Positions 1-16,215 of a DNA stretch of 64,000 nt are shown in pieces (the stretch's first letter is position 1; each line of letters opens with the position of its first letter). Location of the stretch: NCBI RefSeq assembly GCF_000215705.1, contig NC_015677.1, positions 496,001-560,000 on the forward strand, read 5' to 3'. Under the pieces are notes generated by a model. The model did no database searches. It was given only the letters and a program-made list of their open reading frames with translations, and was not told the DNA's origin. Both the position numbers and the translations under genes were made by a program. This DNA comes from Ramlibacter tataouinensis TTB310 (GTDB lineage Bacteria; Pseudomonadota; Gammaproteobacteria; Burkholderiales; Burkholderiaceae_C).

Positions 1-846
1 CGGCCCAGCCCCGGCGCCTCCAAGGACGCGATCCAGTTCCACTACGACGTCGGCAACGACTTCTACCACCTGTGGCTGGATGAAACAAAGACCTACACCT
101 GTGCGCTCTGGAACGAGGGCGACGACATCGCCGCGGCACAAAAGCGCAAGCTCGACCATCACATCACCGAGGCCAAGGCGCCGGGCGTGGCGCGCGCGCT
201 GGACATCGGATGCGGCTGGGGACCCTGCCTGCGGCGCATGGTGGAGACCCATGGCGTCCAACACGCGGTGGGCCTCACGCTCAGCCAGGCGCAGGCCGAC
301 TACGTGAAGTCGCTGGGTAATCCGGGGATCGAAATCCGGGTGGAAAGCTGGTTCGATCACGAGCCTACCGCGCCTTATGACGCCATCATCTCCATCGGCG
401 CCTTCGAGCACTTCGCCCGGCCGGACGTCGCGCTGGCCGAGAAGATCGACGGTTACCGGGCCTTCTTCGACCGCTGCCGGCGCTGGCTGCGGCCCGGCGG
501 GCGGCTGTCCCTGCAGACCATCGTGTACGAGAATTCCGACCGCGCCGACCTGAGCCCCTTCATCCTGGAGCGAATCTGGCCGGAAACCGACCTGCCGCGG
601 CTGGCCGACATCTGCACCGCCGTGGAACGCAAGTTCGAGGTGGTACGCCTGCACAACGACCGCCAGGGCTACGTACGCACCTGCGCCGAGTGGGTGCGGC
701 AGCTGGGCGTACACCGGGACAAGATCGTCTCCACGGTCGGCCTGGACACGTACGAGCGTTACGTGCACTGGCTCAAGCTCTCCATGGTCGGGTTCCACAC
801 CGGCACCATGGGCCTGCTGCGGATCACGTTCCAGCGGATCGACTGA
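1..846 (+). CDS. Cyclopropane-fatty-acid-synthase-like SAM methyltransferase (5' end cut off)
   Basis: The frame is open from base 1 to the TGA at 844-846, so 281 codons are visible and only the N-terminus is missing. The early stretch HYDVGNDFYHLWLDE followed by TYTCALW matches the start of the cyclopropane/mycolic-acid methyltransferase family. The SAM-binding motif LDIGCGWGP begins near codon 65, and IGAFEHF carries the glutamate that sits in the family's active site. Family members transfer a methyl group from SAM onto an acyl-chain double bond, usually on a phospholipid or carrier-bound acyl group. The ketosynthase gene follows after 18 bp, so the two are probably co-transcribed. I infer a tailoring step on the acyl product of this locus; a membrane-lipid role is the alternative. 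Confidence 0.85.
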   Translation, partial: RPSPGASKDAIQFHYDVGNDFYHLWLDETKTYTCALWNEGDDIAAAQKRKLDHHITEAKAPGVARALDIGCGWGPCLRRMVETHGVQHAVGLTLSQAQADYVKSLGNPGIEIRVESWFDHEPTAPYDAIISIGAFEHFARPDVALAEKIDGYRAFFDRCRRWLRPGGRLSLQTIVYENSDRADLSPFILERIWPETDLPRLADICTAVERKFEVVRLHNDRQGYVRTCAEWVRQLGVHRDKIVSTVGLDTYERYVHWLKLSMVGFHTGTMGLLRITFQRID

Positions 847-864
847 CCCGGCACCACGGCGCGC

Positions 865-2157
865 ATGTGGCCCGAACCGATCGCTGTCGTCGGCATCGGC
901 TGCCGATTCCCCAAGGCACCCGGGATCGAGCAGCTGTGGAAGCTGCTCATGGACGGGGTGGACGCGGCCGGCGTCCGCCCCCGCGCGGAATGGCTGCTTC
1001 CCTCCTATGTCGATGAGACGCACGAGCACATCCGCTGGATTCTCGATTGCCCGGGCGGCTTCATCGACCGGAATGAGCTGCCCGCCAATCTGATCCCCGA
1101 CACGCTGCCCGACGGCGGCTCGGTGCTCGATCCCCAGCAGGCGGTTTTCGTGCAGTGCGCCACCGAGGCGCTGGCCGACGCCGGGCTGGCCGATCTGCCG
1201 GTACGCGACGGCGCCGTGGTCGGCGTATGGTGCGGCGCCACCAACATCGACTACCACCGTTGGCTCTACAGCCGCGCCAGCAACATCTGCATCGCGGGCT
1301 ATGTGGGCTCGGCGATCGCCGCCATCTCCAACCGCGTGTCCAACCAGCTCAACCTGCGCGGGCCCAGCCTGACCATCGACTCGGCCTGCACGTCCGGCCT
1401 GGCGGCCGTGCACCTGGCCTGCCAGAGCCTGCTGCTGGGCGAGTCGGACTTCTGCCTGGCCGGCGGCATCAACATCATCATCAACCCGGACTCCAGCCTG
1501 ACCTTCGTCGCCAGCGGCATGTTGTCCAAGTCGGGGCGCTGCCGGGTGTTCAGCGCCGACGCCGACGGCTACATCCGCGCCGAAGGCTGCGCGGTGCTGA
1601 TGCTGGAAAGACTCAGCCAGGCGCGCGCCGCGGGACGCCGCGTCCACGGGCTGATCCTGGGCTCGGCGCTCAACCACACGGGCGAAAGCGCGGGCATCAG
1701 CATGCCGCGCGCCTCTGCCCAGGTGGATCTGATCCGGCGGGCGCATGCCGCCGCCGGCGTCACGGCCGCCCAGGTCCAGTACGTGGAGGCACACGCGGTG
1801 GGCACGCCGCTGGGCGACATGACGGAACTCGCCTCGCTGGAACAGGTATTCGCCGAACGCGCAGGCGGTGGCGGTGGCAAGGTGACGGTCGGCTCGCTCA
1901 AGACCAACTTCGGCCATTGCGAAGCGGCGTCCGGCCTGGCCGGCCTGCTCAAGGGCTTGTGCATCGCGAGGCACCGCAAGATACCGCCCAACCTGCACTT
2001 CAACGACATCAACCCGCGTTCGCGCAAGAGCGGGCGCGTCCTGCACATTCCGCTGGAGGCCATGGACGCGGGGGCCGGGCGGGTCATCGCCGGCGTCTCC
2101 ACCTTCGGGGCCACCGGCGCCAACGGCCACATGATCGTGGCCGCCGATGCGTCCTGA
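865..2157 (+). CDS. Stand-alone PKS-type beta-ketoacyl synthase
   Basis: A 430-residue thiolase-fold condensing enzyme. It opens with EPIAVVGIGCRFP, a polyketide-synthase KS signature. The nucleophile is Cys175 in DSACTSG. The two histidines are His310 in VEAHAVGT and His351 in KTNFGHCEAA, so the Cys-His-His triad is intact. The first histidine motif departs from the usual HGTGT. No acyltransferase, reductase or carrier domain is attached: the protein ends right after the KS fold, so it must work in trans with a separate carrier protein such as the one at 15074-15304. The thioesterase gene starts 25 bp after its stop. The ATG at 865 is the first start before the conserved motif, and it lacks a clear Shine-Dalgarno sequence. 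Confidence 0.9.
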   Translation: MWPEPIAVVGIGCRFPKAPGIEQLWKLLMDGVDAAGVRPRAEWLLPSYVDETHEHIRWILDCPGGFIDRNELPANLIPDTLPDGGSVLDPQQAVFVQCATEALADAGLADLPVRDGAVVGVWCGATNIDYHRWLYSRASNICIAGYVGSAIAAISNRVSNQLNLRGPSLTIDSACTSGLAAVHLACQSLLLGESDFCLAGGINIIINPDSSLTFVASGMLSKSGRCRVFSADADGYIRAEGCAVLMLERLSQARAAGRRVHGLILGSALNHTGESAGISMPRASAQVDLIRRAHAAAGVTAAQVQYVEAHAVGTPLGDMTELASLEQVFAERAGGGGGKVTVGSLKTNFGHCEAASGLAGLLKGLCIARHRKIPPNLHFNDINPRSRKSGRVLHIPLEAMDAGAGRVIAGVSTFGATGANGHMIVAADAS

Positions 2158-2182
2158 AAGACATCAAGCGAGGAAAGAACCG

Positions 2183-2716
2183 ATGAACCAGCAGACCGAT
2201 CGGCGCGAGGAAATCCTGAATGCAACGAGAACCCGCACCTTCACCTGGGAGGATCCGCACAAGCTGTTCGGCATCGCCCGCACCATGAGCGGCTTGGAAC
2301 TGATGCGCAAGATGATGGGGGGCGAGATTCGCCTGCCGCCCATCATGGAACTGGTCGACTTCCGCCTTCGCCGCGTGGATCCCGGCGAGGTGGATTTCGT
2401 GTTCATGCCGCAGGAGTTCCACTTCAGCCCGATCGGCACGGTGCACGGCGGGATCGCCTGCACGCTGCTGGATTCCGCGATGAGCTGCGGGGTCTACGCG
2501 GCGATCCCGGCCGGCGCGGCGTTTACCACGCTGCAGTTGAACGTGAACCTGATCCGGCCGATCACGCTGGAAAGCGGCGAGCTGCGCTGCGAGGGCAAGG
2601 TCGCCCATCTCGGCGCGCGCACCGCCACCGCCGAGGCCCGCCTGGTGGACTCCGGGGGCAGGCTTTACGCCCACAGCTCCACCACCTGCATGATCTTCCC
2701 GGCGACGTCCAAGTAG
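2183..2716 (+). CDS. PaaI-type hotdog-fold thioesterase
   Basis: A 177-residue acyl thioesterase of the PaaI/uncharacterised-domain-1 type. The core FSPIGTVHGGIACTLLDSAM (about residues 75-94) is the hotdog helix with its HGG turn. The strands ending in the ASSTCMIF-like C-terminus complete the single hotdog domain. I chose ATG 2183 over an in-frame ATG at 2147, because 2183 has GAGGAAAG just upstream whereas 2147 overlaps the end of the ketosynthase gene. Such enzymes hydrolyse acyl-CoA or acyl-carrier thioesters. Between a ketosynthase and a fatty-acyl-AMP ligase it is likely to release or edit the acyl intermediate. The exact substrate cannot be read from the sequence. Confidence 0.85.
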   Translation: MNQQTDRREEILNATRTRTFTWEDPHKLFGIARTMSGLELMRKMMGGEIRLPPIMELVDFRLRRVDPGEVDFVFMPQEFHFSPIGTVHGGIACTLLDSAMSCGVYAAIPAGAAFTTLQLNVNLIRPITLESGELRCEGKVAHLGARTATAEARLVDSGGRLYAHSSTTCMIFPATSK

Positions 2717-2762
2717 CCGGCGCCGCCGCGCCGGCCACACAGCCGCAGCACACGACAGCACC

Positions 2763-4538
2763 ATGGAGACCCTCGTCGCGCCGCCGACCAGCCGCACCGG
2801 CGAAGCCACGATCCTGGAGGTGTTGCTGCGGCATGCCGCCTCGACGCCCGACCGTGTCGCCTTCCGCTTCCTGGCAGGCGGCGACGTGGAGTCCGACAGC
2901 GTCACCTTCGGCCAACTGGCCGACCAGACGCGGGCCTTGGCGCTCAGCCTGCATGCGTCCGAGGAAATGGGCGCCTGCGTGCTGCTGCTGCTCGATTCGG
3001 GCCTGGCCTTCATCAAGGCCATGTTCGCCTGCATGTACGCCGGCCTGGTGCCGGTGGCGGTGGATCTGCCGCGGCCGAACCGACCCACCGACCGGCTGGA
3101 AGCCATCGTGCGCCATTCGGGCTGCCGCGCCCTCATCACCAGCAAGGCCGACCTGCCGCGCGTGGAGAAGCTGATCGTCGCGGTGCCGGCGCTCGCCGCG
3201 CTGGAATGCCACCTGGTCGACACCGCAACCGCCGGCCCGATCGCGGGGACGGCGCTGCCGCGTCCGGCGGCAGGGCACGCCGCCTTCATCCAGTACACGT
3301 CGGGCTCGACCAGCACGCCCAGGGGTGTCGTGGTCACGCACGGCAACCTGATGTCCAACCAGGTGCAGATCAAGTCCGCGTTCGAGCACGACGAACACAC
3401 GAAATTCTGCGGCTGGCTGCCCATGTTCCACGACATGGGGCTGATCGGCAACGTGCTGCATCCGCTCTACCTGGGCATCGAGTGCACGCTCATGCCGCCC
3501 GCCGCCTTCGTGCAGCGGCCACTGCGCTGGCTGGACGCGATCTCCAGGTACGGCGCCACCACCGCGGGCGGCCCGAACTTCGCGTATGACCACTGCGTGA
3601 GCCGGATCGCGGAGGCCGAGATCGACAGGCTTGATCTCTCCGGCTGGCGTGCCGCCTTCAGCGGCGCCGAGGCGGTGCGCGCTTCGACGCTGCGGGAATT
3701 CGCGCGCAAGTTCGCGCGCGCCGGCTTCGACCCCACTGCCTTCCTGCCGTGCTACGGGCTGGCGGAAGCCACGCTGCTGGCGGCTGGCCATTCGCGCTTC
3801 GGGCGCGCCGAGCCTGTCGTGCTGCGCGTGGACCGCGCGCAGCTGGAACAAGGCCGCCTCCGGTGCGCCGACCCGGCGGCCGGTGCCGCGGCCGGCGTCG
3901 AACTGGTGTCCAACGGCCCGCCCGCCCCCGATCAGACCATCTTCATCGTCGATCCTGCGACCGTCCAGCCATGCGCTGCGGGCGAGATCGGCGAGATCTG
4001 GCTGGCCGGCCCCAACGTCTCGGCCCGCTATGCGCACGACGCCGAGCGCACCCAGAGCGTCCTGCACGCCCGGCTGCCCGGCTGCGAGCAGCGGTTTGTG
4101 GCCACGGGCGACTTGGGCACGCTCTGGAGCGGGGAACTGCTGGTGGTGGGGCGGCGGAAGAATCTGATCATCGTGCGCGGCCGCAAGATCCATGCGGAGG
4201 ACCTGGAGCACCTGGTCGGCCGCAGCCACGAACTGTTCCAGCGCAACCGTTGCGCCGCATTCGCCGTGCAGGCCGACGCCGCCGGTGAGGAATCCGTGGT
4301 GATCGTGCAGGAAGCCGTGCGCCGCCCGCGCAGCGAGGCCGAGGTGCGGCAAGCGCTGGCCGGCGCGCTCGACCTGATCGCGGAGCATTTCGACCTCGTG
4401 CCGCTCGACATGGTGCTGGTGCTGCCAGGCACCATCCCGGTCACCACCAGCGGCAAGATCCGGCACGCGCCCTTGCGCAGGGCCTATCTGGCCGGCGAGA
4501 TCATGCCGGCACCGGTGCGCGAAGGGTCGGCGGGCTGA
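2763..4538 (+). CDS. Fatty-acyl-AMP ligase (FAAL-type ANL enzyme)
   Basis: A 591-residue ANL-superfamily adenylating enzyme. The order is A3 loop YTSGSTSTPRGVVVTHGNL, WLPMFHDMGLIG (typical of the FAAL/PKS-loading branch), A5 YGLAEATL, A7 ATGDLG, and hinge RKNLIIVRGRKI. The C-terminal lysine is in TTSGKIRH. The length and the HDMGLIG motif favour a FAAL, which makes an acyl-adenylate and hands the acyl group to a carrier protein rather than to CoA. It is the last gene of the rightward operon and ends 46 bp before the converging acyl-CoA dehydrogenase gene. I infer that it supplies the starter fatty acid for the locus, probably to the ACP at 15074-15304. Confidence 0.9.
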   Translation: METLVAPPTSRTGEATILEVLLRHAASTPDRVAFRFLAGGDVESDSVTFGQLADQTRALALSLHASEEMGACVLLLLDSGLAFIKAMFACMYAGLVPVAVDLPRPNRPTDRLEAIVRHSGCRALITSKADLPRVEKLIVAVPALAALECHLVDTATAGPIAGTALPRPAAGHAAFIQYTSGSTSTPRGVVVTHGNLMSNQVQIKSAFEHDEHTKFCGWLPMFHDMGLIGNVLHPLYLGIECTLMPPAAFVQRPLRWLDAISRYGATTAGGPNFAYDHCVSRIAEAEIDRLDLSGWRAAFSGAEAVRASTLREFARKFARAGFDPTAFLPCYGLAEATLLAAGHSRFGRAEPVVLRVDRAQLEQGRLRCADPAAGAAAGVELVSNGPPAPDQTIFIVDPATVQPCAAGEIGEIWLAGPNVSARYAHDAERTQSVLHARLPGCEQRFVATGDLGTLWSGELLVVGRRKNLIIVRGRKIHAEDLEHLVGRSHELFQRNRCAAFAVQADAAGEESVVIVQEAVRRPRSEAEVRQALAGALDLIAEHFDLVPLDMVLVLPGTIPVTTSGKIRHAPLRRAYLAGEIMPAPVREGSAG

Positions 4539-4584
4539 AGTGTCCTGCGTTAGCGGTGGGGTAAGCGCACGGCAATGCCGGCGC

Positions 4585-5775
4585 TCAGATCGAGAAGGCC
4601 GAGATGCCGGTCTGCGCGTGGCCGAGGACCAGCGCGTTGACGTCGCTGGTGCCTTCATAGGTGTTGAGGGCCTCCAGGTTGCACATGTGCCGCATCACCG
4701 AGTAGGCGTCCGACATGCCGTTGCCCCCCAGCATGTCACGCGCCGTGCGCGCGATGTCCAACGCCTTGCCGCACGCATTGCGCTTGAGCATGGCAATGGC
4801 TTCGGCCGGCAACCGTCCCTGGTCCAGCAGGCGCCCGGCCTGCAGCGCGGCCGCCAGTCCCAGCGCGATCTCGGTCTGCATGTCCGCCAGCTTCTTTTGC
4901 ACCAGCTGGTTGGCTGCAAGTGGCCGGCCGAACTGGCGGCGCTGCAGCACGTAGCCCCGCGCCTCGTGCCAGACGGCGGTGGCCGCGCCCATGGCGCCCC
5001 AGCACAGGCCATAGCGCGCCTTGTTGATGCAGGCCAGCGGCCCGCGCATGCCTGCCGCGTCCCCGAGCACCTGGAAGGGCGGGACGAGCACCTCGTCCAT
5101 CACCACATCGCCGGTGGCGGAGGCGCGCAGGCCCAGCTTGCCCGTGATGGCGGCGGTGGACAGGCCCGGCATGCCGCGCTCCAGGATGAAGCCGCGGATC
5201 ATCGCCGGCGTTCCGGCCTTGGCCCAGATCACGAACAGGTCCGCGATCGGCGCGTTGCTGATCCAGGTCTTGCGGCCGGACAGCACGAAGCCATCTCCGT
5301 GCGGGCGCGCGGTGCTGGCCAGGCGGCTGGGGTCGGAGCCATGATCGGGTTCGGTCAGGCCGAAGCAGCCGATGGCCTCGCCCGCGGCCAGGCGCGGCAG
5401 GTAGCGGTCCTTCTGCGCTTGGCTGCCGAAGCGGTGGATGGCGTGCATCACCAGGTTGGACTGCGAGCTGACCATGGTGTGGAAGGCGGAATCCACGCGT
5501 TCCAGCTCGAAGCCGATCAGGCCGGCGCACACGCTGTTCATGCCAGCGCAGCCCCAGCCCTGGATGGTGGCGCCCAGCAGCCCCATGCCGCCGAACTGCA
5601 GGAACAGCTCGCGTGGCGTGGTCTCGCTGCGGTACAGCTCGCGCACGCGCGCAGCCAGCTCGCCCGCCGCGAACCTGCGCAGCGCCGCCTGCAGCGCGCG
5701 CTCTTCCTCGGTCAGCTGCTCCTCGATGCGCAGCAGATCCTCCCAGCAAGCGCGCGGATGGTCCTGCGGTTGCAT
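4585..5775 (-). CDS. Acyl-CoA dehydrogenase, glutaryl-CoA-dehydrogenase-like
   Basis: A 396-residue flavin-dependent acyl dehydrogenase. FGLTEPDHGSDPS and RKTWISNAPIADLFVIWAK line the FAD and substrate sites. The catalytic glutamate is Glu374 in TYEGTSDVNALVLG, close to the glutaryl-CoA dehydrogenase C-terminus. The enzyme removes two hydrogens at C2-C3 of an acyl thioester and passes electrons to an electron-transfer flavoprotein. It is the last gene of the leftward operon; its start lies 32 bp after the hydrolase stop. In this setting it may desaturate a carrier-bound intermediate, giving an alkene that the cyclopropane-type methyltransferase could use. Whether it also decarboxylates, as glutaryl-CoA dehydrogenase does, cannot be judged here. 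Confidence 0.88.
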   Translation of the reverse strand: MQPQDHPRACWEDLLRIEEQLTEEERALQAALRRFAAGELAARVRELYRSETTPRELFLQFGGMGLLGATIQGWGCAGMNSVCAGLIGFELERVDSAFHTMVSSQSNLVMHAIHRFGSQAQKDRYLPRLAAGEAIGCFGLTEPDHGSDPSRLASTARPHGDGFVLSGRKTWISNAPIADLFVIWAKAGTPAMIRGFILERGMPGLSTAAITGKLGLRASATGDVVMDEVLVPPFQVLGDAAGMRGPLACINKARYGLCWGAMGAATAVWHEARGYVLQRRQFGRPLAANQLVQKKLADMQTEIALGLAAALQAGRLLDQGRLPAEAIAMLKRNACGKALDIARTARDMLGGNGMSDAYSVMRHMCNLEALNTYEGTSDVNALVLGHAQTGISAFSI

Positions 5776-5807
5776 TCAGTGCGTCCCGCGGGCGGCGTGC
5801 GCGCGGC

Positions 5808-6707
5808 TCACGCCGCATCCCCGTGCTGCTGCGGCTCGCGCCGGCCCTGCCGCAGGAAGTCCACCACCCGGCGCACCACCGGCTCGGCCCGCAGGATCTT
5901 GCGATGGCCGTAGCCCTCGGTCATGAACAGCTGCGCGCCGGGCCAGCTGCGGTGCACCGCGCGACCCTCGTGCGGCAGCACGAAGTCGTCGTCCGCATCC
6001 TGCACCACGAGGCCCTTGACGTGCGGAAGGCGCGCCACGATCTGCTCGATGGAAAAACGGTTCCACACGTCGGGAAAGTCACGTGCCAGCTGCTGCTTGA
6101 ACAGCTCGCCTGGCGCCTTGGGCACGCCCAGGCGCTTCTCGACCTTCTGGTAGACCGCTTCCATGTTCTGCGGCGGAGCGATCAGCGCGATGCGCTCGAC
6201 CGCGATGTCCTCCAGCGCAACCAGGGCGAACGAGCCCCCCATGGAGTGGGCGACGATGGCGTACAGGCTGCCGGCCTGGCGCGCCACCTCGGCCACCATC
6301 TGGCTGATGATCACGCCGTTGGTCTGCCGGCCCGCCGACTCGCCATGGCCGTGGGCGTCGAAGGTGAGCACGCGGAACCCGGCCTCCACCAGCGGCTTGA
6401 AGAAGGCCATCATCTGCGTGCCCCGGCCGTCCCAGCCGTGCACCAGCAGCACCGCCGGTCCGCGGCCCTGCGCATACAGCTTGTAGCCGACGCCGTTGAC
6501 GCGGAACTCGCTGACCTCGGCCTCCCGCTTGAAAGCCAGCTCGCGTGCGGAGGGGCGGTGCCGGATCGGATGGCACCACAGCCAGTACAGCAGCCGGCTC
6601 GCCAGCCGCGTGCTCAGCGCGTTGGTGGCCCGCAGCACCATGCCCAGGAGGCGGAAGATGCGGTCTTCGGCGGTGACCGCCGGCTGGGTTGCTGTATTCG
6701 AAGTCAT
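5808..6707 (-). CDS. Alpha/beta hydrolase
   Basis: A 299-residue alpha/beta-hydrolase. LLVHGWDGRGTQM forms the oxyanion-hole strand (about 83-95), AHSMGGSFAL carries the nucleophilic serine, VVQDADDDFVLP the acid, and GYGHRKIL the histidine. The family hydrolyses esters, thioesters or amides. No signal peptide is evident, so the protein is probably cytoplasmic. It lies 3 bp after the KASIII-like gene and 32 bp before the acyl-CoA dehydrogenase gene on the same strand. A chain-releasing thioesterase or a product-editing esterase is plausible. Confidence 0.85.
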   Translation of the reverse strand: MTSNTATQPAVTAEDRIFRLLGMVLRATNALSTRLASRLLYWLWCHPIRHRPSARELAFKREAEVSEFRVNGVGYKLYAQGRGPAVLLVHGWDGRGTQMMAFFKPLVEAGFRVLTFDAHGHGESAGRQTNGVIISQMVAEVARQAGSLYAIVAHSMGGSFALVALEDIAVERIALIAPPQNMEAVYQKVEKRLGVPKAPGELFKQQLARDFPDVWNRFSIEQIVARLPHVKGLVVQDADDDFVLPHEGRAVHRSWPGAQLFMTEGYGHRKILRAEPVVRRVVDFLRQGRREPQQHGDAA

Positions 6708-6710
6708 TGG

Positions 6711-7805: not shown

Positions 7806-7824
7806 TTGCCTGGCGCCGGTCGCA

Positions 7825-10476
7825 TCAGTTGCAGGCCACGACGCCCGAGCGGCGGTCGACGCACACGTCGGTGTTGCGCACGCCGTTGAATGCATAGGTC
7901 CTTGGCGCCGCGTCGCCCGACGGCCAGCGTACCTGCAGCGAGCGCAGCGTGCCCTCGCCCAGGCCGACGATCAGGGTGTCGTGCGCCGAGCAGGTGGCGC
8001 CACCCTGGGTGGCGCGCACGGTACGCATCACGTTGCCGTTGACCAGCACCTCGGCGCCGACCGCATGGATATTCTTGCCGGTGTCGTCGCGCAGCTTCAC
8101 CTTGACCCAGTTGCTGGGGTTCTGCTTCCTGCCGTTCTGGTTGATATAGAGCGTGGTCAACCCGGGCTCATAGGTGGTGGGCGCCTTGGAGAGCTTGTTG
8201 ACGGGCGGCACGGCCAGCGGCTTGCCCAGCACATTCACCTTGAGGTTGCGCGCATCGGGCGAATTCGAGGTGTATCCGCCGATGTGCGTGACCAGAATAT
8301 CGCCGAAACCGTCGTTGTTCAGGTCGGCGGACATCACGCACATCGCCTGCTCGTGCAGCCGGTAGATGTCCATTGCCTTGCCGCCGGAGGAATCGAGGCC
8401 GTAGCCTTCGTACGATCCCGTGTCGCCTACGTACACGTAGTCGCGCTTGTGCCAGCCCGAGCCGGGTGAGGGCCGGCGCGGCGGATTGTGGTCGTAATCC
8501 ATGTGCCGGATGTCCAGCAGCCGGTACTCCAGCGTACGGTCGCGGAAATGGATGTTGCCGGGGCTGCTGATGTTCTCCAGGAAGCGGCCCGGCCCGCCGG
8601 CCATGTCGCCGAAATTGTCGCCGCCGCGGCCCAGGCCGCCGGCGAAATACAGGTCCAGCTTGCCGCGGTTGTCGGCGTCGAACATGGCCACGTTGTAGGC
8701 GAACTCCAGGCCCGCCAGCGTCGTGGCGAACTTGCGCTTGTCCACCTGCTCACGGTACTCGGGCAGCACGTTGGCCTTGTTCAGCTGGTCGGGCGGCAGC
8801 ACGGTGGAATAGTCCACCTTCGCCAGATCCGAGCGCAGCTCGACGCCGCGCCGGGCGTCCCAGGCCAGGATCGCGTTGCTCAGGTTGTTGACGCCGTGCG
8901 CGTAGGCCATGTTGGACGCCGTGGTGATCGTGGTCTCCTTCTCGTCCTTGATCAACAGGCGCGTGTTGCGGGTCGACATGACCTGGCTGCCGCAGTTGGT
9001 GACCACCGCCTGCTCCCTGCCGCTGCCGTCCAGGTCGCCGGCGGCCATGCCCATCCAGCAGCCCTCGTAGGCCAGATCGTTGAATTTCTTCTCGTACTTG
9101 AAGCCCTTGCCGGCCATGTTCCTGTACACGCGGAACCGGTTGCCCTGGTCCGTGGAGACCACCAGGTCGGACCAGCCGTCCTTGTCGTAGTCCATGAAGA
9201 GCGCCGCCCAGCTGTGGTCGGCCGGCTCGCCCACCTGCTTGCCCTGGTAGATGTCCAGGGAGTTCTGCTCCTTCCTGCCGGCGCCCGGCCGGTAGGAATA
9301 GCTCTCCACGGCGCCGGCCTTGTGCACACCCGCCAGGTCGTCGTCGGCGACGTCGACGAAGGCGAGTTCGCCGCTCTCCACGAGCATGTTCTTGTAGAGC
9401 TGTCGCCGGTTGCCGGCGAAGTGGTCGCGCGTGAAGCCGGTGAAGTCGGGATCGATGAAATTGGCCACCACGATGTCCAGGTCGCCGTCGCGGTCGAAGT
9501 CGAACACCTCGGCGCTGACGGAAGCCCACTTGCCGCCCAGGCCCGTGCGCTCGGTCGCATCCTCCCACTCGGGAATGCCGTTGCCGTTCTTGTCGCCCAG
9601 GTTCAGCAGCATGGAGTTGCGGCCTTCGGGCTCCAGCTTGCCGTTGACGTCGACCATCTTGTTCAGGCCGTCCTCCATTCCCAGCCCTGCGGACAGGAAG
9701 GACGGCGCCTTGGCCAGCACCGCGCGCGAACTGGACTCGCGGCCCAGGTTGGTGCCCGCCGGGTAGATGCGCCAGGCGTAGTCGTCGTTCTGGAACGGCA
9801 GGCCGAAGTGGCCATTCAACACCAGGATGTCCATCCTGCCGTCGCCGTTCACGTCCGCGCAGGCCGCGCCCCAGCCGATGCGGCCCTCGCCGTCGTCGGG
9901 CTCGTCCACGCTGGCGCGTGGCTTGTACTTGCCCTCGAACACCAGCTCGCCTTCCATGCGGACGCGATCGGCGCCCGGCTGCTTGAGCAACTGCTGCACC
10001 GACTTGAACATCGGGCTGCCGTCCTTGTCGTTGCCCTGGTTGATGAGCAGGCCGTTGGGCCGCGGCTTGAAGCGCTCGGTGCCCACCGTGTGGCCCGGCG
10101 TGGGCTTGGCCACGGTGCGCTGGATGTTGGGGAAGAACAGGTCCAGCCTGCCGTCGCCGTTGACGTCGCAGGCGGTGGCCCCGCGGAACCAGGCGGTGTT
10201 GAACTCGCGGTGCTCGGCCAGCTCGCCCAGGTTCTCCAGCTTGACGAAGGGCATCACGTCGCTCGCCACCTCGATGCGGTCGGGCACCGGCAGCGCGGCG
10301 CCCGCGAGCCAGGCCTTGGTCTGCGTGGTCTCGCTCATGAGGCCGGCGCGCATCAGCAGCAGCTCGCCCATGATCTTGACCTTGATCGGGTCGCTGTAGT
10401 ACTTCCAGTAGCCGAACCCGGCTGCGGCCAGCAGGAGCACCAGCAGGCTCGAGGCGGCGATCTTCAAGGCTTTCAT
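7825..10476 (-). CDS. Secreted FG-GAP/VCBS-repeat protein with C-terminal ASPIC/UnbV domain
   Basis: An 883-residue protein with an N-terminal membrane segment (about residues 6-27, LLVLLLAAAGFGYW), so it is secreted or anchored facing the periplasm. At least seven calcium-type loops follow across residues 100-720, including DVNGDGRLDLFF, DVNGDGRMDILV, DFDRDGDLDIVV, DYDKDGWSDLVV and DLNNDGFGDILV, as in a beta-propeller. The last 80 residues (VGAEVLVNG, TQGGATCSAHD, LQVRWPSG) match the ASPIC/UnbV domain of CRTAC1-like proteins. UnbV proteins are conserved in enediyne warhead clusters, with no settled function. The gene begins 11 bp after the unknown membrane-anchored gene, so the two are probably translated together. 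Role inferred: an extracytoplasmic partner of this biosynthetic locus. Confidence 0.85.
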   Translation of the reverse strand: MKALKIAASSLLVLLLAAAGFGYWKYYSDPIKVKIMGELLLMRAGLMSETTQTKAWLAGAALPVPDRIEVASDVMPFVKLENLGELAEHREFNTAWFRGATACDVNGDGRLDLFFPNIQRTVAKPTPGHTVGTERFKPRPNGLLINQGNDKDGSPMFKSVQQLLKQPGADRVRMEGELVFEGKYKPRASVDEPDDGEGRIGWGAACADVNGDGRMDILVLNGHFGLPFQNDDYAWRIYPAGTNLGRESSSRAVLAKAPSFLSAGLGMEDGLNKMVDVNGKLEPEGRNSMLLNLGDKNGNGIPEWEDATERTGLGGKWASVSAEVFDFDRDGDLDIVVANFIDPDFTGFTRDHFAGNRRQLYKNMLVESGELAFVDVADDDLAGVHKAGAVESYSYRPGAGRKEQNSLDIYQGKQVGEPADHSWAALFMDYDKDGWSDLVVSTDQGNRFRVYRNMAGKGFKYEKKFNDLAYEGCWMGMAAGDLDGSGREQAVVTNCGSQVMSTRNTRLLIKDEKETTITTASNMAYAHGVNNLSNAILAWDARRGVELRSDLAKVDYSTVLPPDQLNKANVLPEYREQVDKRKFATTLAGLEFAYNVAMFDADNRGKLDLYFAGGLGRGGDNFGDMAGGPGRFLENISSPGNIHFRDRTLEYRLLDIRHMDYDHNPPRRPSPGSGWHKRDYVYVGDTGSYEGYGLDSSGGKAMDIYRLHEQAMCVMSADLNNDGFGDILVTHIGGYTSNSPDARNLKVNVLGKPLAVPPVNKLSKAPTTYEPGLTTLYINQNGRKQNPSNWVKVKLRDDTGKNIHAVGAEVLVNGNVMRTVRATQGGATCSAHDTLIVGLGEGTLRSLQVRWPSGDAAPRTYAFNGVRNTDVCVDRRSGVVACN

Positions 10477-10487
10477 GGCATGTCTCC

Positions 10488-12131
10488 TCAGATGATGTTC
10501 ACGTCTTCGTACGAGCGAAAGAGTGGCGGCTGGTAGGCGGACGAACTCGCGCGCAGCTTCTGCGCGAGCGGCTCCGTGATCTCCACCTCCAGCTCGAGCA
10601 GGTCCAGGATGCGTTCATAGGCCACGAAGGTCACGCGCAGGAAGGTGCGCTCGCCCCTGGTGAACACACGCAGCGCCATCTGCTCGACGCCGCCTTCGTG
10701 GTTGTTCTCCAGCCGCCACTGGCCGTCGCGCCAGACGGTCTGGTAGCCGTAGTGCGGCACCGGTCCGTCCTTCAGGCGCAGGTGACGCCGCTCGGCGAAC
10801 TCCGCGGGCGGGTTGACCCCGACGCCGAACGAGGGCAGCAGGTAGTCCTCCTGATCGACCAGCAGCGCCAGCGGGATGTTGCCCATCACGATGCGGCGCT
10901 GGCGGTCCTTGGCATAGACCGAGATCTCCAGGAACTCATCGCCCGCCGCGGCCGGCTTGCCGTCGCGGAACCGGGTGAGCGGCTTGACCGACCTGACCTC
11001 CACGTCCTCCCAGAACGGGTCGAACGGGATGGTTTTCTTCTCGTCGCCGCTGTAGATGCCCGGATTGACGAACTTGCGCGTGCTGAAGATGTCGCCCGCC
11101 TCCAGGTCGGCGAAGGTCTTGGCGTCGATGGTGTTGGCCGCGCCGAACAGGCTGAAGCCGCGTGTCACCTCGAAGTATTTGTTCTGCGACTTCTGGCGCG
11201 ATTCCTGGCTGGAATAGCTGCCGATCTGCTTGCCGGCCGACACCTTGGCCTTTCCCTGGAACAGCAAGGGCCCCTCGGTGCGCAGCCGGCCCAGGTCCGC
11301 CGGCACCGAGGTGATGTCGCCGCGGTACTTCAGGGCGGAAATGATCTCGCGGTCCGGCAGGTCGATGCCGTTGGCGCGGCGGATCATTTCCGCGTACACC
11401 GGCCAGGGCATGTTGAACCAGGCGTGGTACATCTCGCCGACCGCGTCGGTCGCCGACAGCTCCCACAGTCCCGCCTTCAGGCAGTTGTTGGTGATGCTGA
11501 AGCGCTTCGGCCTGGCGAGCTTGTTGGGCACGATGGCGCCGCCCTGGCCGGTCGTGTAGTCCTCTTCGCCGCCGGCGTTCAAGAAGGGCCTGGGCAGGTC
11601 GTTGAAGTAGGCAAGGGTGCTGTTCCTGGCCTGGTACGCCAGCATCAGCCCGTTACGGCCGAATTCGGCGAGCATCAGGTTGGCGCGGTCGAAGTCGTCC
11701 AGCCCGCCCGGCGCGGTGGCGTAGGGCAGGATGGGCACCATCTGGTAGGCGTCCAGGTTCTCGAGGTTCACCGTCTTGCCGCCGTCCGGGGAGGCGATCT
11801 GCAGCGAGAAGCGCGTCCCCTCGGGCGCCAGCTGGATCTTCGGTATGCGCGTCAACTCATCCAGCACCGAGGAATAGCGGTTCACCGATTGCGTGGACGG
11901 ATTGATGGGGCCGCCCCTCGCGTCGCGGTGCTCCATGTTGAGATTGAGCGGGATGTTCTCCAGCGGCTCGGCCGTCCACAGCCTCCAGCCCAGCCCGGCC
12001 GCGGCCGCCAGCACCAGGACGCACACGCCCCGCACGACCGGACGGCGCCGCCAGCCAGGTGCGGCGCCGAATCCGGGCGTTGCCAGTCCTTGCGGCGCTT
12101 GGGCGGCACCTAACGACTCGTAGACTTGCAT
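10488..12131 (-). CDS. Unrecognised membrane-anchored protein of the acyl locus
   Basis: A 547-residue protein that I cannot place in a family. The ATG at 12131 has GAGGAGAA directly upstream. One hydrophobic segment (about residues 32-48, VCVLVLAAAAGLGW) follows a short Arg-rich stretch, so it is a single-span protein with some 500 residues outside the cytoplasm. The exported part is polar and rich in aromatic residues, with few cysteines and no repeat I can see. The start lies 22 bp inside the end of the methyltransferase gene and the stop 11 bp before the UnbV-type gene. The tight coupling suggests that it works with the UnbV-type protein at the membrane. No function is assigned. Confidence 0.75.
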   Translation of the reverse strand: MQVYESLGAAQAPQGLATPGFGAAPGWRRRPVVRGVCVLVLAAAAGLGWRLWTAEPLENIPLNLNMEHRDARGGPINPSTQSVNRYSSVLDELTRIPKIQLAPEGTRFSLQIASPDGGKTVNLENLDAYQMVPILPYATAPGGLDDFDRANLMLAEFGRNGLMLAYQARNSTLAYFNDLPRPFLNAGGEEDYTTGQGGAIVPNKLARPKRFSITNNCLKAGLWELSATDAVGEMYHAWFNMPWPVYAEMIRRANGIDLPDREIISALKYRGDITSVPADLGRLRTEGPLLFQGKAKVSAGKQIGSYSSQESRQKSQNKYFEVTRGFSLFGAANTIDAKTFADLEAGDIFSTRKFVNPGIYSGDEKKTIPFDPFWEDVEVRSVKPLTRFRDGKPAAAGDEFLEISVYAKDRQRRIVMGNIPLALLVDQEDYLLPSFGVGVNPPAEFAERRHLRLKDGPVPHYGYQTVWRDGQWRLENNHEGGVEQMALRVFTRGERTFLRVTFVAYERILDLLELEVEITEPLAQKLRASSSAYQPPLFRSYEDVNII

Positions 12132-12982
12132 GGGGTTCTCCTCGCGAAAAGACTGGTGGCTGTCAGCAGGAAATAGCCAAGCACCTGCTCGGACCACAGG
12201 GATTCCAGAACGTGGGTGGCCGCGACGAAGTCGGCCCAGGCGGGCTCGCCGATCAGCCGCACGACCGTGTCGCGATGCGTGGCGGCGTTGGCCCGCCACC
12301 GCACGAAGGTGGGCGCGGTCGCGGCGGTCAGGTCCAGCATCTCGACCTGGTCGAAGCCCGCGCTGCGCGCCTGGCTCGCGTACAACGCGGGCGGGCGCAT
12401 CAACGCCCGGCCAAACACGCGGGCGAGCAACAGGAACTCGTCGCGCCGCGCGATCACCTCGGCAAGGGCCAGCTCGCGCGTTTGCACGACATCGCACAGC
12501 ACCACCTGGCCGCCGGGCTTGAGCACGCGCCGCAGCTCGGTGAAAAGCCTGCGTTTGTCCAGCATCAGGTGCGACGACTCCATCACCCACGCGGCCTCGA
12601 AGCTCTGGTCGGCAAAAGCCATGGCCTGGGCATCACCCAGCTCGAAATGCAACAAGCCCGCGAGATCGCCGGGAACGGTCGCGCGAGCGATGTCGATGCA
12701 GGCGGTGCTGGGCGAGATGCCGGCCACCGCGCAGCCCAGGCGCCGCGCGAGCGCCTGCGCCGGCGCGCCGGTGCCACAACCCACGTCCAGCACGCGCGTG
12801 CCCGGACCGATACCGCGCAGGCGCTCCAGCATGCGTGCGGTGAGCGATCCGGTCGCGTGCTCCAGGCTCTCGCCGCCGGACTCGAAATACCCGTAGTGCA
12901 GGCTGCTGCCGAGCAGATATCCCCAGGCCCGGGCCACGGCGTCGTAGTGGCGGGCGCTGTTGACGCGGCACGCCTCTAGCAC
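12110..12982 (-). CDS. SAM-dependent methyltransferase
   Basis: A 290-residue class I methyltransferase with GTG start at 12982. That start overlaps the end of the FabG-like gene (stop 12976-12978). Motif I is VLDVGCGTGAPAQALA (about residues 63-78), then GISPSTACIDIAR and a post-II region LKPGGQVVLCDVV. The N-terminal AWGYLLGSSLHYGYFESG resembles small-molecule and sterol C-methyltransferases of the UbiE/Erg6 group. It is the second methyltransferase of the locus. Its 22-bp overlap with the next gene points to translational coupling. Likely role: O- or C-methylation of the acyl product. The acceptor is unknown. Confidence 0.85.
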   Translation of the reverse strand: MLEACRVNSARHYDAVARAWGYLLGSSLHYGYFESGGESLEHATGSLTARMLERLRGIGPGTRVLDVGCGTGAPAQALARRLGCAVAGISPSTACIDIARATVPGDLAGLLHFELGDAQAMAFADQSFEAAWVMESSHLMLDKRRLFTELRRVLKPGGQVVLCDVVQTRELALAEVIARRDEFLLLARVFGRALMRPPALYASQARSAGFDQVEMLDLTAATAPTFVRWRANAATHRDTVVRLIGEPAWADFVAATHVLESLWSEQVLGYFLLTATSLFARRTPCKSTSR

Positions 12983-13719
12983 GTGAGGCCTCCGTCGATC
13001 ACCAGCACCTGGCCCGTGATGAAGCCGCCGGCCGGCGAGGCCAGCAGGTCCAGCGCGCCCACCACGTCTTTCACCGTCCCCAGGCGGCCCAGCGGGGTGC
13101 GGCGCTCGATCTGGCGCAGCTGTTTGTCGTCCAGGGACTGGCTCATCTCGGTGCGCAGGAAACCCGGCGCGACCGAGTTCACCGTGATGCCCCTGGAGCC
13201 CAGCTCGCGCGCCAGCGCGCGCGTGTACCCGTCCAGCGCTGCCTTGGAAGCGCCGTAAACCGAGAGCCCCCGATAGCCCGAAGTGCCGACGATGGAGCTG
13301 ATGTTGACGATGCGGCCAAAGCCGGCGGCGAGCATCATGCGCGAGACCTCGCGCGTCAGGCGCAGGGTGCCTTTGATGTTGAGATCGACCACCGCGTCGA
13401 TGTCCTCGTCGTTGAACAGCGCGACCACGCCTGCGAGCGCTATGCCCGCGTTGTTGACCAGCAGGCTGACCGGGCCGAACCGCTGCGCCGCCGCCCGCAC
13501 GAACCGCTTGCAGTCCCCGTCCTTGACGAGGTCCAGCTCCTCGAAGAAGAAGCTGTCGGGATGGCGCTGCTGCAAGGCGCGCGCCGCGTCGGTGGTGCGG
13601 CGGCTGAAACTCGCGACCTTGTGGCCCCCCGCCAGCAAGTGCTCGACGATGCCCAGGCCGAGGCCGCGCCCGCCGCCGCTGACGACGGCGATGTGGCGGT
13701 CGGGTGGGGTGCCGTTCAT
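12976..13719 (-). CDS. Short-chain dehydrogenase/reductase, FabG-like
   Basis: A 247-residue SDR. The cofactor motif SGGGRGLGLG is near residue 15 and NNAG near residue 90. The catalytic Ser-Tyr-Lys set appears in NISSIVG and YGASKAA, and PGFLRTEM follows, as in 3-oxoacyl-ACP reductases. ATG 13719 overlaps the stop of the upstream ANL ligase by 4 bp. It probably reduces the 3-keto group made by one of the two condensing enzymes, using NADPH. No dehydratase or enoyl reductase gene is present in the visible locus, so full reduction would need housekeeping enzymes. Confidence 0.9.
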   Translation of the reverse strand: MNGTPPDRHIAVVSGGGRGLGLGIVEHLLAGGHKVASFSRRTTDAARALQQRHPDSFFFEELDLVKDGDCKRFVRAAAQRFGPVSLLVNNAGIALAGVVALFNDEDIDAVVDLNIKGTLRLTREVSRMMLAAGFGRIVNISSIVGTSGYRGLSVYGASKAALDGYTRALARELGSRGITVNSVAPGFLRTEMSQSLDDKQLRQIERRTPLGRLGTVKDVVGALDLLASPAGGFITGQVLVIDGGLTC

Positions 13720-15059
13720 GCCGCCGCCCGTCGCGCCAGCTTCATGTTGGCGGTTTCGAGGGCGTCCACATAGACGATCTGCCGCGGCCGCGCGTGCCGC
13801 CCGAGGACGCTGCAGGCGGCCCGGATGCGCGGCTCCACCTCTTCTGGCAGATGGCCTCGATGCAGGACCACGCGCAGCCGCACGATCTGCCCGGTCATGG
13901 GGTTGGGACGGCCCTCGGCGATCGCGGTCGCCACGCCCGGTAGCGGGTTCACCAGAGCCTCGATCTGCTGCGGGTAGACCTTCATGCCGCCGACGTTGAT
14001 CGTCTCCGACTTGCGCCCGAGGAACAGCACCCTTTCGGCCGTGCGCTCGACGAGATCGCCGGTGGCGCGGTAGTGCGTGGCCGGGCCCGAACCCTGGCGT
14101 ACGTGCAACTCGCGGTTCACGATCCGCAGCAGGGCGCCACCTTGCGCCTGCGGGTCGAAAAGCGAAAGCGGTAGGCCGGCGCGGCAGTCCTTGACCGAAA
14201 CCACCGAACCCAGCTCGGTCGACGCATAGACCTGCGAGATGCTGACGCCGGGGTACAGGGCCGCGATGCGGTCCAGCACTTCCTGCGTGACGACCTCGCC
14301 GCCCAGCGTGACGTGGCGCAGCGTGACGATGGGTGATGCGCAGGCCGGCGAGACGAAGGCGGCGCGCCAGAAAGTGGGAGTGCTGCTGATGTGCGTGGCA
14401 CCCTCCCTGCTTGCCGCCGCCCACATCGCCGGAACCTGGGCGCAGGCGGGCACGATCAGCACCTCCCCATGAACGAGCGCATGCAGCAGCACCTGAATGC
14501 CTGCGAAGTGCGCCAGGCCATAGGCAAGCAGCCAGCGCCGAGGCCCGGCCGGTGGGCTGACGCGCACGGCCGCGACCAGGTCGCGCCAACGCAGGTCGAT
14601 GGCCTTGGACTGTCCCGTCGTGCCGGAACTCAGGATACGGATGCCGCTATCCGGTGCCGCCGGAAGTTCCAGCAGCCTCGCATCGGCTGCGCAGGCCGGA
14701 TCCAGCGCGAGCGCGCGGTCGCCGAATGCGTCCGAAAGCCCGGGCTGCGCCGCCGCATCGCACAGAACGGCCTGGCACTCCATGCGCGCCGCCAACCGCT
14801 GCAGCTCCTGCCGCGGCAGGCTGTCACTCAGTATCACCGCCGATGCGTCCAGGCGAGAAACGGCCGCGAGTGCCGCCACCATGCGGCCAGACGGCACCAT
14901 GCACAGACCGAAACGCTTGTGGCCGGCCCGGTGCAGCTGGAGCGCCCATGCATCGGCCAGCGCGCACAAGCGGGCGGCCGGCCACGGCCCTTCGTGCGCT
15001 ATCAGCGCGGGCTCGTCGGGCGCGCGGGCGGCGAGGTCGGAAAGAAGGGCGTACAGCAT
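13716..15059 (-). CDS. Small ANL-superfamily acyl/aryl-acid ligase
   Basis: A 447-residue adenylating enzyme, about 100 residues shorter than most acyl-CoA synthetases. The core motifs are present: ILSSGTTGQSKAI (A3), QVYASTELGSV (A5), HYRATGDLV (A7), GRKSETINVGGMKVYPQQIE (A8), and a C-terminal lysine in ETANMKLAR (A10). The shortness falls in the N-terminal subdomain. It sits between the ACP gene (14 bp downstream of the ACP stop) and the FabG-like gene, so loading an acid onto that ACP is the simplest reading. With the FAAL this gives the locus two separate activating enzymes, perhaps for two acyl or acid building blocks. Confidence 0.85.
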   Translation of the reverse strand: MLYALLSDLAARAPDEPALIAHEGPWPAARLCALADAWALQLHRAGHKRFGLCMVPSGRMVAALAAVSRLDASAVILSDSLPRQELQRLAARMECQAVLCDAAAQPGLSDAFGDRALALDPACAADARLLELPAAPDSGIRILSSGTTGQSKAIDLRWRDLVAAVRVSPPAGPRRWLLAYGLAHFAGIQVLLHALVHGEVLIVPACAQVPAMWAAASREGATHISSTPTFWRAAFVSPACASPIVTLRHVTLGGEVVTQEVLDRIAALYPGVSISQVYASTELGSVVSVKDCRAGLPLSLFDPQAQGGALLRIVNRELHVRQGSGPATHYRATGDLVERTAERVLFLGRKSETINVGGMKVYPQQIEALVNPLPGVATAIAEGRPNPMTGQIVRLRVVLHRGHLPEEVEPRIRAACSVLGRHARPRQIVYVDALETANMKLARRAAA

Positions 15060-15073
15060 CGTGCTCCTGCCTC

Positions 15074-15304
15074 TCAGGCATAGAAGTCCAGCAGATCGCG
15101 AACGCGCGCGGGATACTGGCCCTGGGTATACGGATCACGGCCAAACTGCTGTTCCAGGTTGGCCGAGAATTCGGCGACCGTCAGCGAGTCGAATCCGAGA
15201 TCCTCGTCCTGGATGAAGGATTCGTCGGTGATGCCGATGTCCTGGCGGCCCTGCTCCTCGAGTAGCTTGTGGATGATCTGATAGATGACGTCGCGGTTGC
15301 TCAC
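15074..15304 (-). CDS. Acyl carrier protein
   Basis: A 76-residue stand-alone carrier protein. The phosphopantetheine attachment site is Ser40 in EDLGFDSLTVAEF. A four-helix length, an acidic second helix and an aromatic C-terminus fit the ACP family. I chose GTG 15304 because GGGAGG lies four bases upstream; the longer open frame above it is GC-driven and carries no ACP-like sequence. It is the first gene of the leftward operon and would carry the chain between the FAAL, the ANL ligase, both condensing enzymes and the reductase. No phosphopantetheinyl transferase gene lies in the window, so a housekeeping one is presumably used. Confidence 0.9.
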   Translation of the reverse strand: MSNRDVIYQIIHKLLEEQGRQDIGITDESFIQDEDLGFDSLTVAEFSANLEQQFGRDPYTQGQYPARVRDLLDFYA

Positions 15305-15564
15305 ATGGCCTCCCAAGCCGCTCGCAACGGCTGGCGCGACACCAGACCACGAGCGACGCAAAGCGCGAGGCACCCGCGTCGATTCGACGGGCTCCCCGAT
15401 CAAATAACGGTCGAGCTGCGCCAGGCGCGTGACATCACCTGGCGGCAAGTGACAGGGCCCGCGTCTCCAGTGGGCCGCATTCTGTAGCCTCCTTTTACGC
15501 TTGATCGGTGTCTTTATCGGAGTTGATCCGTATGCTGCTTTCATTGCAACAGGGAGATGAAAGT
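15305..15564. promoter_or_regulatory. Divergent control region between the ACP operon and its regulator
   Basis: These 260 bp separate the leftward ACP operon from the rightward regulator gene and must hold both promoters. The clearest operator candidate is the perfect 13-bp palindrome CGTCGATTCGACG at 15377-15389, on the ACP side. A comparatively AT-rich patch (about 15490-15545) lies nearer the regulator, with the related pair TTGATCGG and TTGATCCG. I could not fix -35 and -10 hexamers with confidence. Confidence 0.55.
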
Positions 15565-16215
15565 ATGCGAACGCTCGATTCGCCGGATGCGGCTGTCCTC
15601 TATAAATACCCGCGGGTTCTGGCGCTGCTTGAAGTTTTCATGGCGCGCCCGGCAACACTGTCCGCGGTCGCCGGCCAGGCTCACATTCCTCTTGCCTCGG
15701 CGCATCGCATGGTCGAACGCCTGATCTCGATCGGTGCGCTCGAAGTGGCGGGGATGATCGAACGCGGTGGCCGCGCGATGAAGCTCTACCAAGTCACCGC
15801 GCCTGCGTTCTTCGTCCCGTCCACCATCGAACGCGAGTGCCTGCCGGATGAAGTGGTGCGTCGCACGCTTGACTCTCACCTGGACGAACAGGTTCCGGGG
15901 CTGATGAAGGCCGCCCGCGAGGCGCTGGGCGACTCCGCCGCATCTGAATGGGGCATGGTCGTCTACGCTGATCGGCACGGGCATCTGGTGGCGCGGCCCG
16001 ACTTCAAGCAGGGTCGCACGCCCAGGCTGCTGGACGACAACAGCCCGGCCTACCTGAACTTCTACCTGGACGACTTGCGCCTGAATGTCTGCGACGCCAA
16101 GAGGCTGCAGCGCGAGCTGGTCGATCTGCTCAAGCGCTACAAGTGCGTAGAACCCGGCTCGGGCACCTACACGCTGTCGGTCATCATGGCGCCCATGGTC
16201 GCCAGGCGCCGATAA
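15565..16215 (+). CDS. Winged-helix transcriptional regulator of the acyl locus
   Basis: A 216-residue predicted DNA-binding protein. ATG 15565 is preceded by AGGGAGATGAAAGT. The N-terminal third reads as a winged helix-turn-helix (LSAVAGQAHIPLASAHRMVERL, about residues 33-54, then a GALEV wing), similar to ArsR/IclR-type folds. The remaining 130 residues lack a ligand-binding domain that I recognise. It is divergent from the ACP gene with a 260-bp shared control region, the usual layout for a pathway-specific regulator. Whether it activates or represses cannot be read here. Confidence 0.75.
   Translation: MRTLDSPDAAVLYKYPRVLALLEVFMARPATLSAVAGQAHIPLASAHRMVERLISIGALEVAGMIERGGRAMKLYQVTAPAFFVPSTIERECLPDEVVRRTLDSHLDEQVPGLMKAAREALGDSAASEWGMVVYADRHGHLVARPDFKQGRTPRLLDDNSPAYLNFYLDDLRLNVCDAKRLQRELVDLLKRYKCVEPGSGTYTLSVIMAPMVARRR

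Follow-up and report, generated by a model that had tools for sequence, protein, structure and literature searches.

The D550-UnbV pair of enediyne-type loci occurs in a rare acyl-gene island of Ramlibacter tataouinensis

What does a protein pair that accompanies enediyne-type synthases in other phyla do in a locus with no such synthase? The question is raised by a 64,000-nucleotide stretch of DNA from Ramlibacter tataouinensis TTB310 (the window; positions 496001-560000 of a single-contig, 4.07-Mb genome), where two convergent operons of acyl genes include D550, a 547-residue protein, and its neighbor UnbV. Genes were called by open reading frame (ORF) listing, families were assigned by Pfam/NCBIfam scans, and motifs were located by script. 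The first-pass annotation of this DNA named UnbV only under its proposed checks and did not list D550, which is the most informative gene of the locus. Judged by its sequence, D550 is an undescribed protein family. We read the locus as a pathway for chains bound to an acyl carrier protein (ACP), joined on an acquired island to an extracytoplasmic D550-UnbV module otherwise used with enediyne-type synthases, and we assign this reading a probability of about 0.5. How the cassette proteins of enediyne biosynthesis convert a polyene into the enediyne core is a long-standing question. We know of no assigned role for the cassette proteins E4 and E5, and a diiodotetrayne intermediate of enediynes has reportedly been studied.

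D550 (10488..12131) and UnbV (7825..10476; 883 residues, FG-GAP beta-propeller and ASPIC/UnbV domain) are both encoded on the reverse strand. A word-limited search of 5.8 billion proteins retrieved at least 20 D550 proteins, that of the window included, and a genome scan yielded 27 D550 loci in at least six phyla. UnbV, the usual neighbor, adjoins D550 in 25 of the 27; the remaining two are L019, where the contig ends, and L032, where D550 is partial. In L022, a 65-residue ORF was called on the opposite strand between the two genes, and in L025 the two genes diverge. A D550 homologue adjoining a long UnbV was thereby observed directly as a module across loci, and in these 27 distant loci the pair is the only conserved part, with a ketosynthase (KS) or polyketide synthase (PKS) nearby in 10. 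The two proteins also co-vary. Their distance matrices correlated with r = 0.94 over 22 pairs, and none of 2000 permutations reached this value; for this test, L015 and L032 were set aside, as were pairs that were short or partial. D550 and all seven UnbVs looked at possess a hydrophobic N-terminal stretch, which is a predicted membrane helix in both window proteins (residues 32-52 in D550). Among 25 D550s (L015 and L032 omitted), a cysteine just behind this stretch was seen by eye in 19 and the strict lipobox pattern in 5. D550 and UnbV, both with predicted N-terminal anchors, may form a physical complex outside the membrane.

The place of the pair in enediyne-type loci was read directly from gene order. 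A Streptomyces plasmid supplied the reference cassette, which encodes DUF1702 twice, a CRTAC1-family protein (E4), an enediyne biosynthesis protein (E5), a type I PKS (PKSE) and a thioesterase (TE). This assignment of letters to proteins partly follows a published listing, which gives the enediyne PKS cassette as E10/E/E5/E4/E3 and puts identity among known cassettes at 33-69% (PMC5181780). In L026, from a planctomycete of the Phycisphaeraceae, the genes DUF1702-E4-E5-PKSE-TE-UnbV-D550 form one run on one strand, with identities to the Streptomyces cassette of 41%, 42%, 52% and 48% for DUF1702, E4, E5 and PKSE, respectively. The complete E3-E4-E5-PKSE-E10 cassette was recovered there in order by tblastn on L100/L101. 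The acidobacterial locus L033 reads UnbV-D550-PKSE, and its PKSE is 45% identical over 1,907 residues, C-terminal domain included. Three Flavobacteriaceae loci (L028, L030 and L034) read DUF1702-D550-UnbV-PKSE-thioesterase, and the pair occupies the E4-E5 place. E5 was not found in the genomes of these three loci; their PKSEs are about 34.6% identical over most of their length and lack the C-terminal part resembling a phosphopantetheinyl transferase. In a 43-row KS tree, the KSs of all five loci (L026, L033, L028, L030 and L034) fell in the clade of the reference PKSEs with 100/99 support. L023, L031 and L029 combine D550-UnbV with DUF1702 and another type of PKS.

A PKSE-like protein, defined by at least 42% identity over 900 residues or at least 35% over most of its length, is present in 7 of 26 D550 genomes (G858, G856, G864, G865, G862, G860 and G845). 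DUF1702 exceeded the cut-off in 11 of 26, among them one 53-position fragment at a contig end and one weak match (E 4e-6), compared with 2 of 296 genomes of L030's order, the only control order; one of these two is the genome of L030 itself. L032 was omitted from the DUF1702, PKSE and E5 counts, its record prefix being that of the metagenome-assembled genome of L026. Some genomes in which the D550 locus itself yielded no KS or PKS carry cassette genes on another contig, namely those of L013 (E3-E4-E5; PKSE-TE), L024 (E4-E5-PKSE) and L009 (DUF1702). The order of L030 also includes genome G944, with a complete E3-E4-E5-PKSE-TE cassette (L110, G944:C1:4003000-4022000; PKSE 33%). D550 is absent from the 19 kb read around it, and the pair is therefore an option rather than a fixed part of the cassette.

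In R. tataouinensis, the locus is a rare and probably acquired island of about 17.5 kb, bounded on the right by the host core gene yraN (UPF0102, PF02021; 16256..16636, reverse strand) and on the left by a SIS-domain gene (PF13580) that we take to be of the gmhA type. When 21 genomes of the genus were searched, 20 had yraN, R. tataouinensis among them. The other genomes provided 19 loci, of which 14 have the SIS gene at most 1.5 kb from yraN; the remaining five show no SIS gene in this flank. Among 60 genomes of the genus, 200 of the family and 399 of the order, samples that may overlap, D550 was found once each time, in R. tataouinensis itself. When four candidates were scored in each of 399 family genomes, no KS close to that of the window turned up outside its own genome; the next-best KSs were 38-43% identical domains within larger frames.

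Inside the island, the rightward operon begins upstream of the window and runs desaturase, CMAS-type methyltransferase, KS, thioesterase and fatty acyl-AMP ligase (FAAL). The leftward operon runs ACP, ANL ligase, short-chain dehydrogenase/reductase (SDR), methyltransferase, D550, UnbV, KASIII-like synthase, hydrolase and acyl-CoA dehydrogenase, with a regulator gene divergent from it. ORF coordinates place the two operons in a convergent arrangement. Successive leftward genes overlap by 4 bp (ANL/SDR), 7 bp (SDR/methyltransferase) and 22 bp (methyltransferase/D550), values that take ATG as the start codon of both SDR and D550 and agree with those first reported. ANL and D550 homologues share contigs of 28639, 157172, 8370 and 16679 bases, if equal size is taken as sameness. 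Of the conserved neighborhood that had been proposed as a check, the D550-ANL linkage thus recurs on four other contigs, and the whole set is not kept in the 27 distant D550 loci.

Two results weigh against our reading. In 17 of the 27 D550 loci, those of Saprospiraceae and Myxococcales included, the fetched DNA yielded no KS or PKS, with a histidine kinase among the neighbors in some of these loci and a redox protein in others. Both observations would suit an enediyne link that is mere hitchhiking, in which a general surface lipoprotein pair travels with natural-product islands and is unrelated to the acyl genes of the window. Against this stand the DUF1702 frequencies (11/26 versus 2/296), the exact position of the pair in three loci, with DUF1702 on one side and PKSE on the other, the overlap between the D550 and methyltransferase genes of the window, and the ANL linkage on four other contigs. 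We consider hitchhiking very improbable. The second result concerns the KS. Its homologues (the best 120 of 525) lie on contigs of none of the lengths listed for D550 homologues, apart from the window's own contig, so a single pathway for both operons is a proposal. The right and left operons could instead be unrelated neighbors, each making its own acyl product. The KS relatives (47-90% identity) on contigs that differ in length from those of the D550 relatives fit this explanation, as does the convergent layout. One such relative is named Mesorhizobium, a genus not among the named D550 matches and loci, most D550 proteins bearing no name. Against it, yraN and the SIS gene enclose both operons in a single island, ACP is missing from the right operon as FAAL is from the left, and the contigs are short, which makes missing linkage weak evidence. 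Two separate operons are, on this balance, somewhat unlikely.

In the ACP-bound pathway that we favor, both operons would serve one route, and the order of reactions is suggested by the gene families. A desaturated or methylated fatty acid would be loaded in the cytoplasm by FAAL or the small ANL ligase, and the chain would be extended by KS and the KASIII-like synthase using host malonyl-ACP. Reduction by the FabG-like SDR may then be followed by dehydrogenation by the acyl-CoA dehydrogenase, and the thioesterase or the hydrolase would release the product. This lipophilic product could meet UnbV, a propeller of CRTAC1 fold, and D550, both presumably anchored in the membrane and facing outward. 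There, the part that E4 and E5 play in the enediyne cassette is probably taken, for unsaturated acyl chains, by D550-UnbV. Alternatively, the pair performs no chemistry on the chain and binds, exports or neutralizes the lipophilic product outside the membrane, as a carrier or for self-protection; such a role would suit a cluster like this one, where scans revealed no transporter gene. Judged from gene placement, a role in completing the molecule seems more likely than one in protecting the cell, and we regard the binding or protection role as unlikely. A broader proposal is decidedly tentative, and we doubt that it holds in full: D550-UnbV could be an extracytoplasmic enzyme of two proteins and a second, undescribed solution for late enediyne-type steps, one that replaces E4-E5 in Bacteroidota, is added to the full cassette in Planctomycetota, and is joined here to a FAAL/ACP/desaturase pathway for an acetylenic or highly unsaturated lipid with no enediyne synthase.

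The putative natural stand-in for E4-E5 in Flavivirga jejuensis KACC 14158 (locus L030) and Aquimarina acroporae D1M17 offers a comparison open to gene deletion. The pair, rare but spread over at least six phyla, is also a precise marker by which to look for unseen unsaturated metabolites in phyla other than Actinomycetota. One report states that enediyne-type KSs are known outside Actinomycetota but that compounds of this kind had not been described from there (PMC10308959).

Searches for relatives of D550 returned mostly negative results. None of 19 members had a Pfam match at 0.001; one of the 19 matched NADase_transloc at E 0.028, which we took as chance. As a distant DUF1702, E4 or E10, D550 was rejected on sub-threshold hidden Markov model (HMM) scores (E over 1), and as a DUF1702 relative on an hhalign probability of 0.1; comparison with the E5 HMM listed no score. 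The best sequence match in the PDB had E 0.59. With the L026 D550 as query, tblastn gave no match at 1e-5 in a plasmid collection with actinobacterial cassettes, and seven pattern matches in viral contigs included no relatives. The AF2 model of D550 reached a pLDDT of 85.9. An apparent D550-UnbV fusion in L015, a 1384-residue ORF, was discarded because its first ~500 residues come from reading across D550 in the wrong frame. Among the matches listed from a mostly open-access literature, we found no description of D550 or of the pair with UnbV in acyl loci.

Several loci show further neighbors of the pair. In six Saprospiraceae loci (L012:8243-9614; L016, L018-L021), a histidine kinase, C3, is divergent and just upstream of D550, with HisKA/HATPase domains in L012 and L016, the two scanned. 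A 150-residue protein, C4, is likewise divergent and just upstream of D550 in these six loci; it had no Pfam match in L012. Three Myxococcales loci (L011:7625-9166, L014:568-2091 and L015:7541-9034) carry a divergent oxidoreductase, C8, beside D550; scans of L011 and L015 found flavin adenine dinucleotide (FAD) and 4Fe-4S domains, and C8 could possibly act as an electron donor. In L025 (4377-11473, Opitutales), an ACP and two single KSs adjoin UnbV and the divergent D550, ORF 75-1502 resembles a carotenoid oxygenase by eye, and the genome holds an E5 homologue outside the stretch fetched. UnbV occurs twice in L010 (11483-18870, Kiritimatiellae), both copies being spread over several frames.

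The remaining genes bear out the first-pass annotation of an acyl/polyketide-type locus: ORF listing and family scans recovered every gene it named. Its start at base 1 has to be moved. The S-adenosylmethionine (SAM)-dependent methyltransferase of the CMAS/CFA type (PF02353 E 3.8e-56; 1..846 in the window, forward strand) starts at -23, that is, 24 bases before the window, and is preceded by a 324-residue fatty acid desaturase (-1343..-369, outside the window, forward; PF00487 E 5.6e-22, three His boxes). Also on the forward strand, the stand-alone PKS-type KS (865..2157; PF00109/PF02801), without an acyltransferase (AT), has the Cys/His/His motifs ACTSG, HAVGTP and GH. It is followed by the hotdog thioesterase (2147..2716, start perhaps 2183; PF03061 E 2.2e-13, TIGR00369 above cut-off) and FAAL (2763..4538; PF00501, P-loop seen). 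The top solved relative of FAAL is 7r7g, named a polyketide synthase, at E 5.5e-129; others include the AMP ligases FadD23 and FadD32. In the 43-row tree, the window KS lies outside the enediyne clade and groups with stand-alone KSs in a clade of eight rows that has 100/100 support. Twelve short KS proteins (P0142-P0153; 372-430 residues, 47-90% identity to the window KS, one named Mesorhizobium) show no AT domain in their Pfam annotation, and the seven that entered the tree share this clade. A second PKS-type KS of the genome (L002, 3243073-3244347) sits in a 2135-residue open frame and is 38% identical to the window KS.

On the reverse strand, the acyl-CoA/acyl-ACP dehydrogenase (4585..5775; PF02771/PF00441/PF02770) and the alpha/beta hydrolase (5808..6707; PF12697, HSMGG motif) adjoin the KASIII-like synthase (6711..7895). 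The latter belongs to the PRK07515 family (NF005703 at 426 bits, cut-off 304), contains the motifs AACS, HQANAH and HGN, has 3led and 5yzu among its solved relatives, and may start internally, the family match beginning at residue 35. Beyond UnbV and D550 lie the SAM methyltransferase (12110..12982; PF08241 E 8.3e-21), the FabG-like SDR ketoreductase (12976..13719; PF13561, TIGR01830 under cut-off, YGASK motif), the 447-residue ANL ligase (13716..15059; PF00501/PF13193, P-loop seen) and ACP (15074..15304; PF00550 E 4.3e-05). Counted from the GTG start of ACP at 15304, the serine of its GFDSL motif is Ser40. The divergent regulator (15508..16215, forward strand) has an IclR-type helix-turn-helix (PF09339 E 1.7e-06). 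Intact motifs were seen, as first described, in KS, KASIII-like synthase, ACP, SDR, FAAL, ANL and hydrolase. Scans of 14 window genes revealed no AT, dehydratase (DH) or transporter family, and the sole family titled enoyl reductase (ER), PF13561, is the FabG-like SDR, in keeping with the earlier statement that AT, DH, ER and transporter were not seen.

The set had not been recognized as a known class, and comparison with known systems upholds this, since the locus fails the enediyne-cassette and aryl polyene features tested. R. tataouinensis gave no match at E 1e-60 to the iterative PKSE (KS-AT-ACP-KR-DH-PPTase), in a search that matches 16 of 27 genomes, some via other PKSs. E5, an RnfD-like membrane protein, had no match at E 1e-5 in this genome and was found in 6 of 28, one of them weak. 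DUF1702 (E3, PF08012) was not found either, and 14 controls were likewise silent. Because its genome has no PKSE, E5 or DUF1702, the locus is not an enediyne cluster; it has at most one kind of part in common with some. That part would be a protein of the UnbV/CRTAC1 type, for which a membrane anchor is predicted at the N terminus, and the D550-UnbV pair stands inside or beside such cassettes in other phyla. The window UnbV differs in its 883 residues and its 22% identity to E4, with UnbV_ASPIC above cut-off, and the window thioesterase matches TIGR00369/PF03061, unlike the E10 thioesterase of L030 (PF13279). Dialkylresorcinol and aryl polyene clusters resemble the locus in the PRK07515 KASIII-like synthase, KS, ACP, SDR and methyltransferase. 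Aryl polyene clusters have a dehydratase and paired FabF-type KSs; the window has one KS and one KASIII, and no aromatase or dehydratase family is among its scanned genes. Polyyne clusters combine FAAL and ACP with several desaturases. With polyyne and terminal-alkyne clusters, the locus shares FAAL, a stand-alone ACP, a desaturase and a hydrolase; it has a single desaturase and adds KS, KASIII, SDR, methyltransferases and D550-UnbV. Compared with cartilage acidic protein 1 (CRTAC1) and bacterial ASPIC/UnbV proteins, the window UnbV is longer, carries a predicted membrane helix and is genetically linked to D550.

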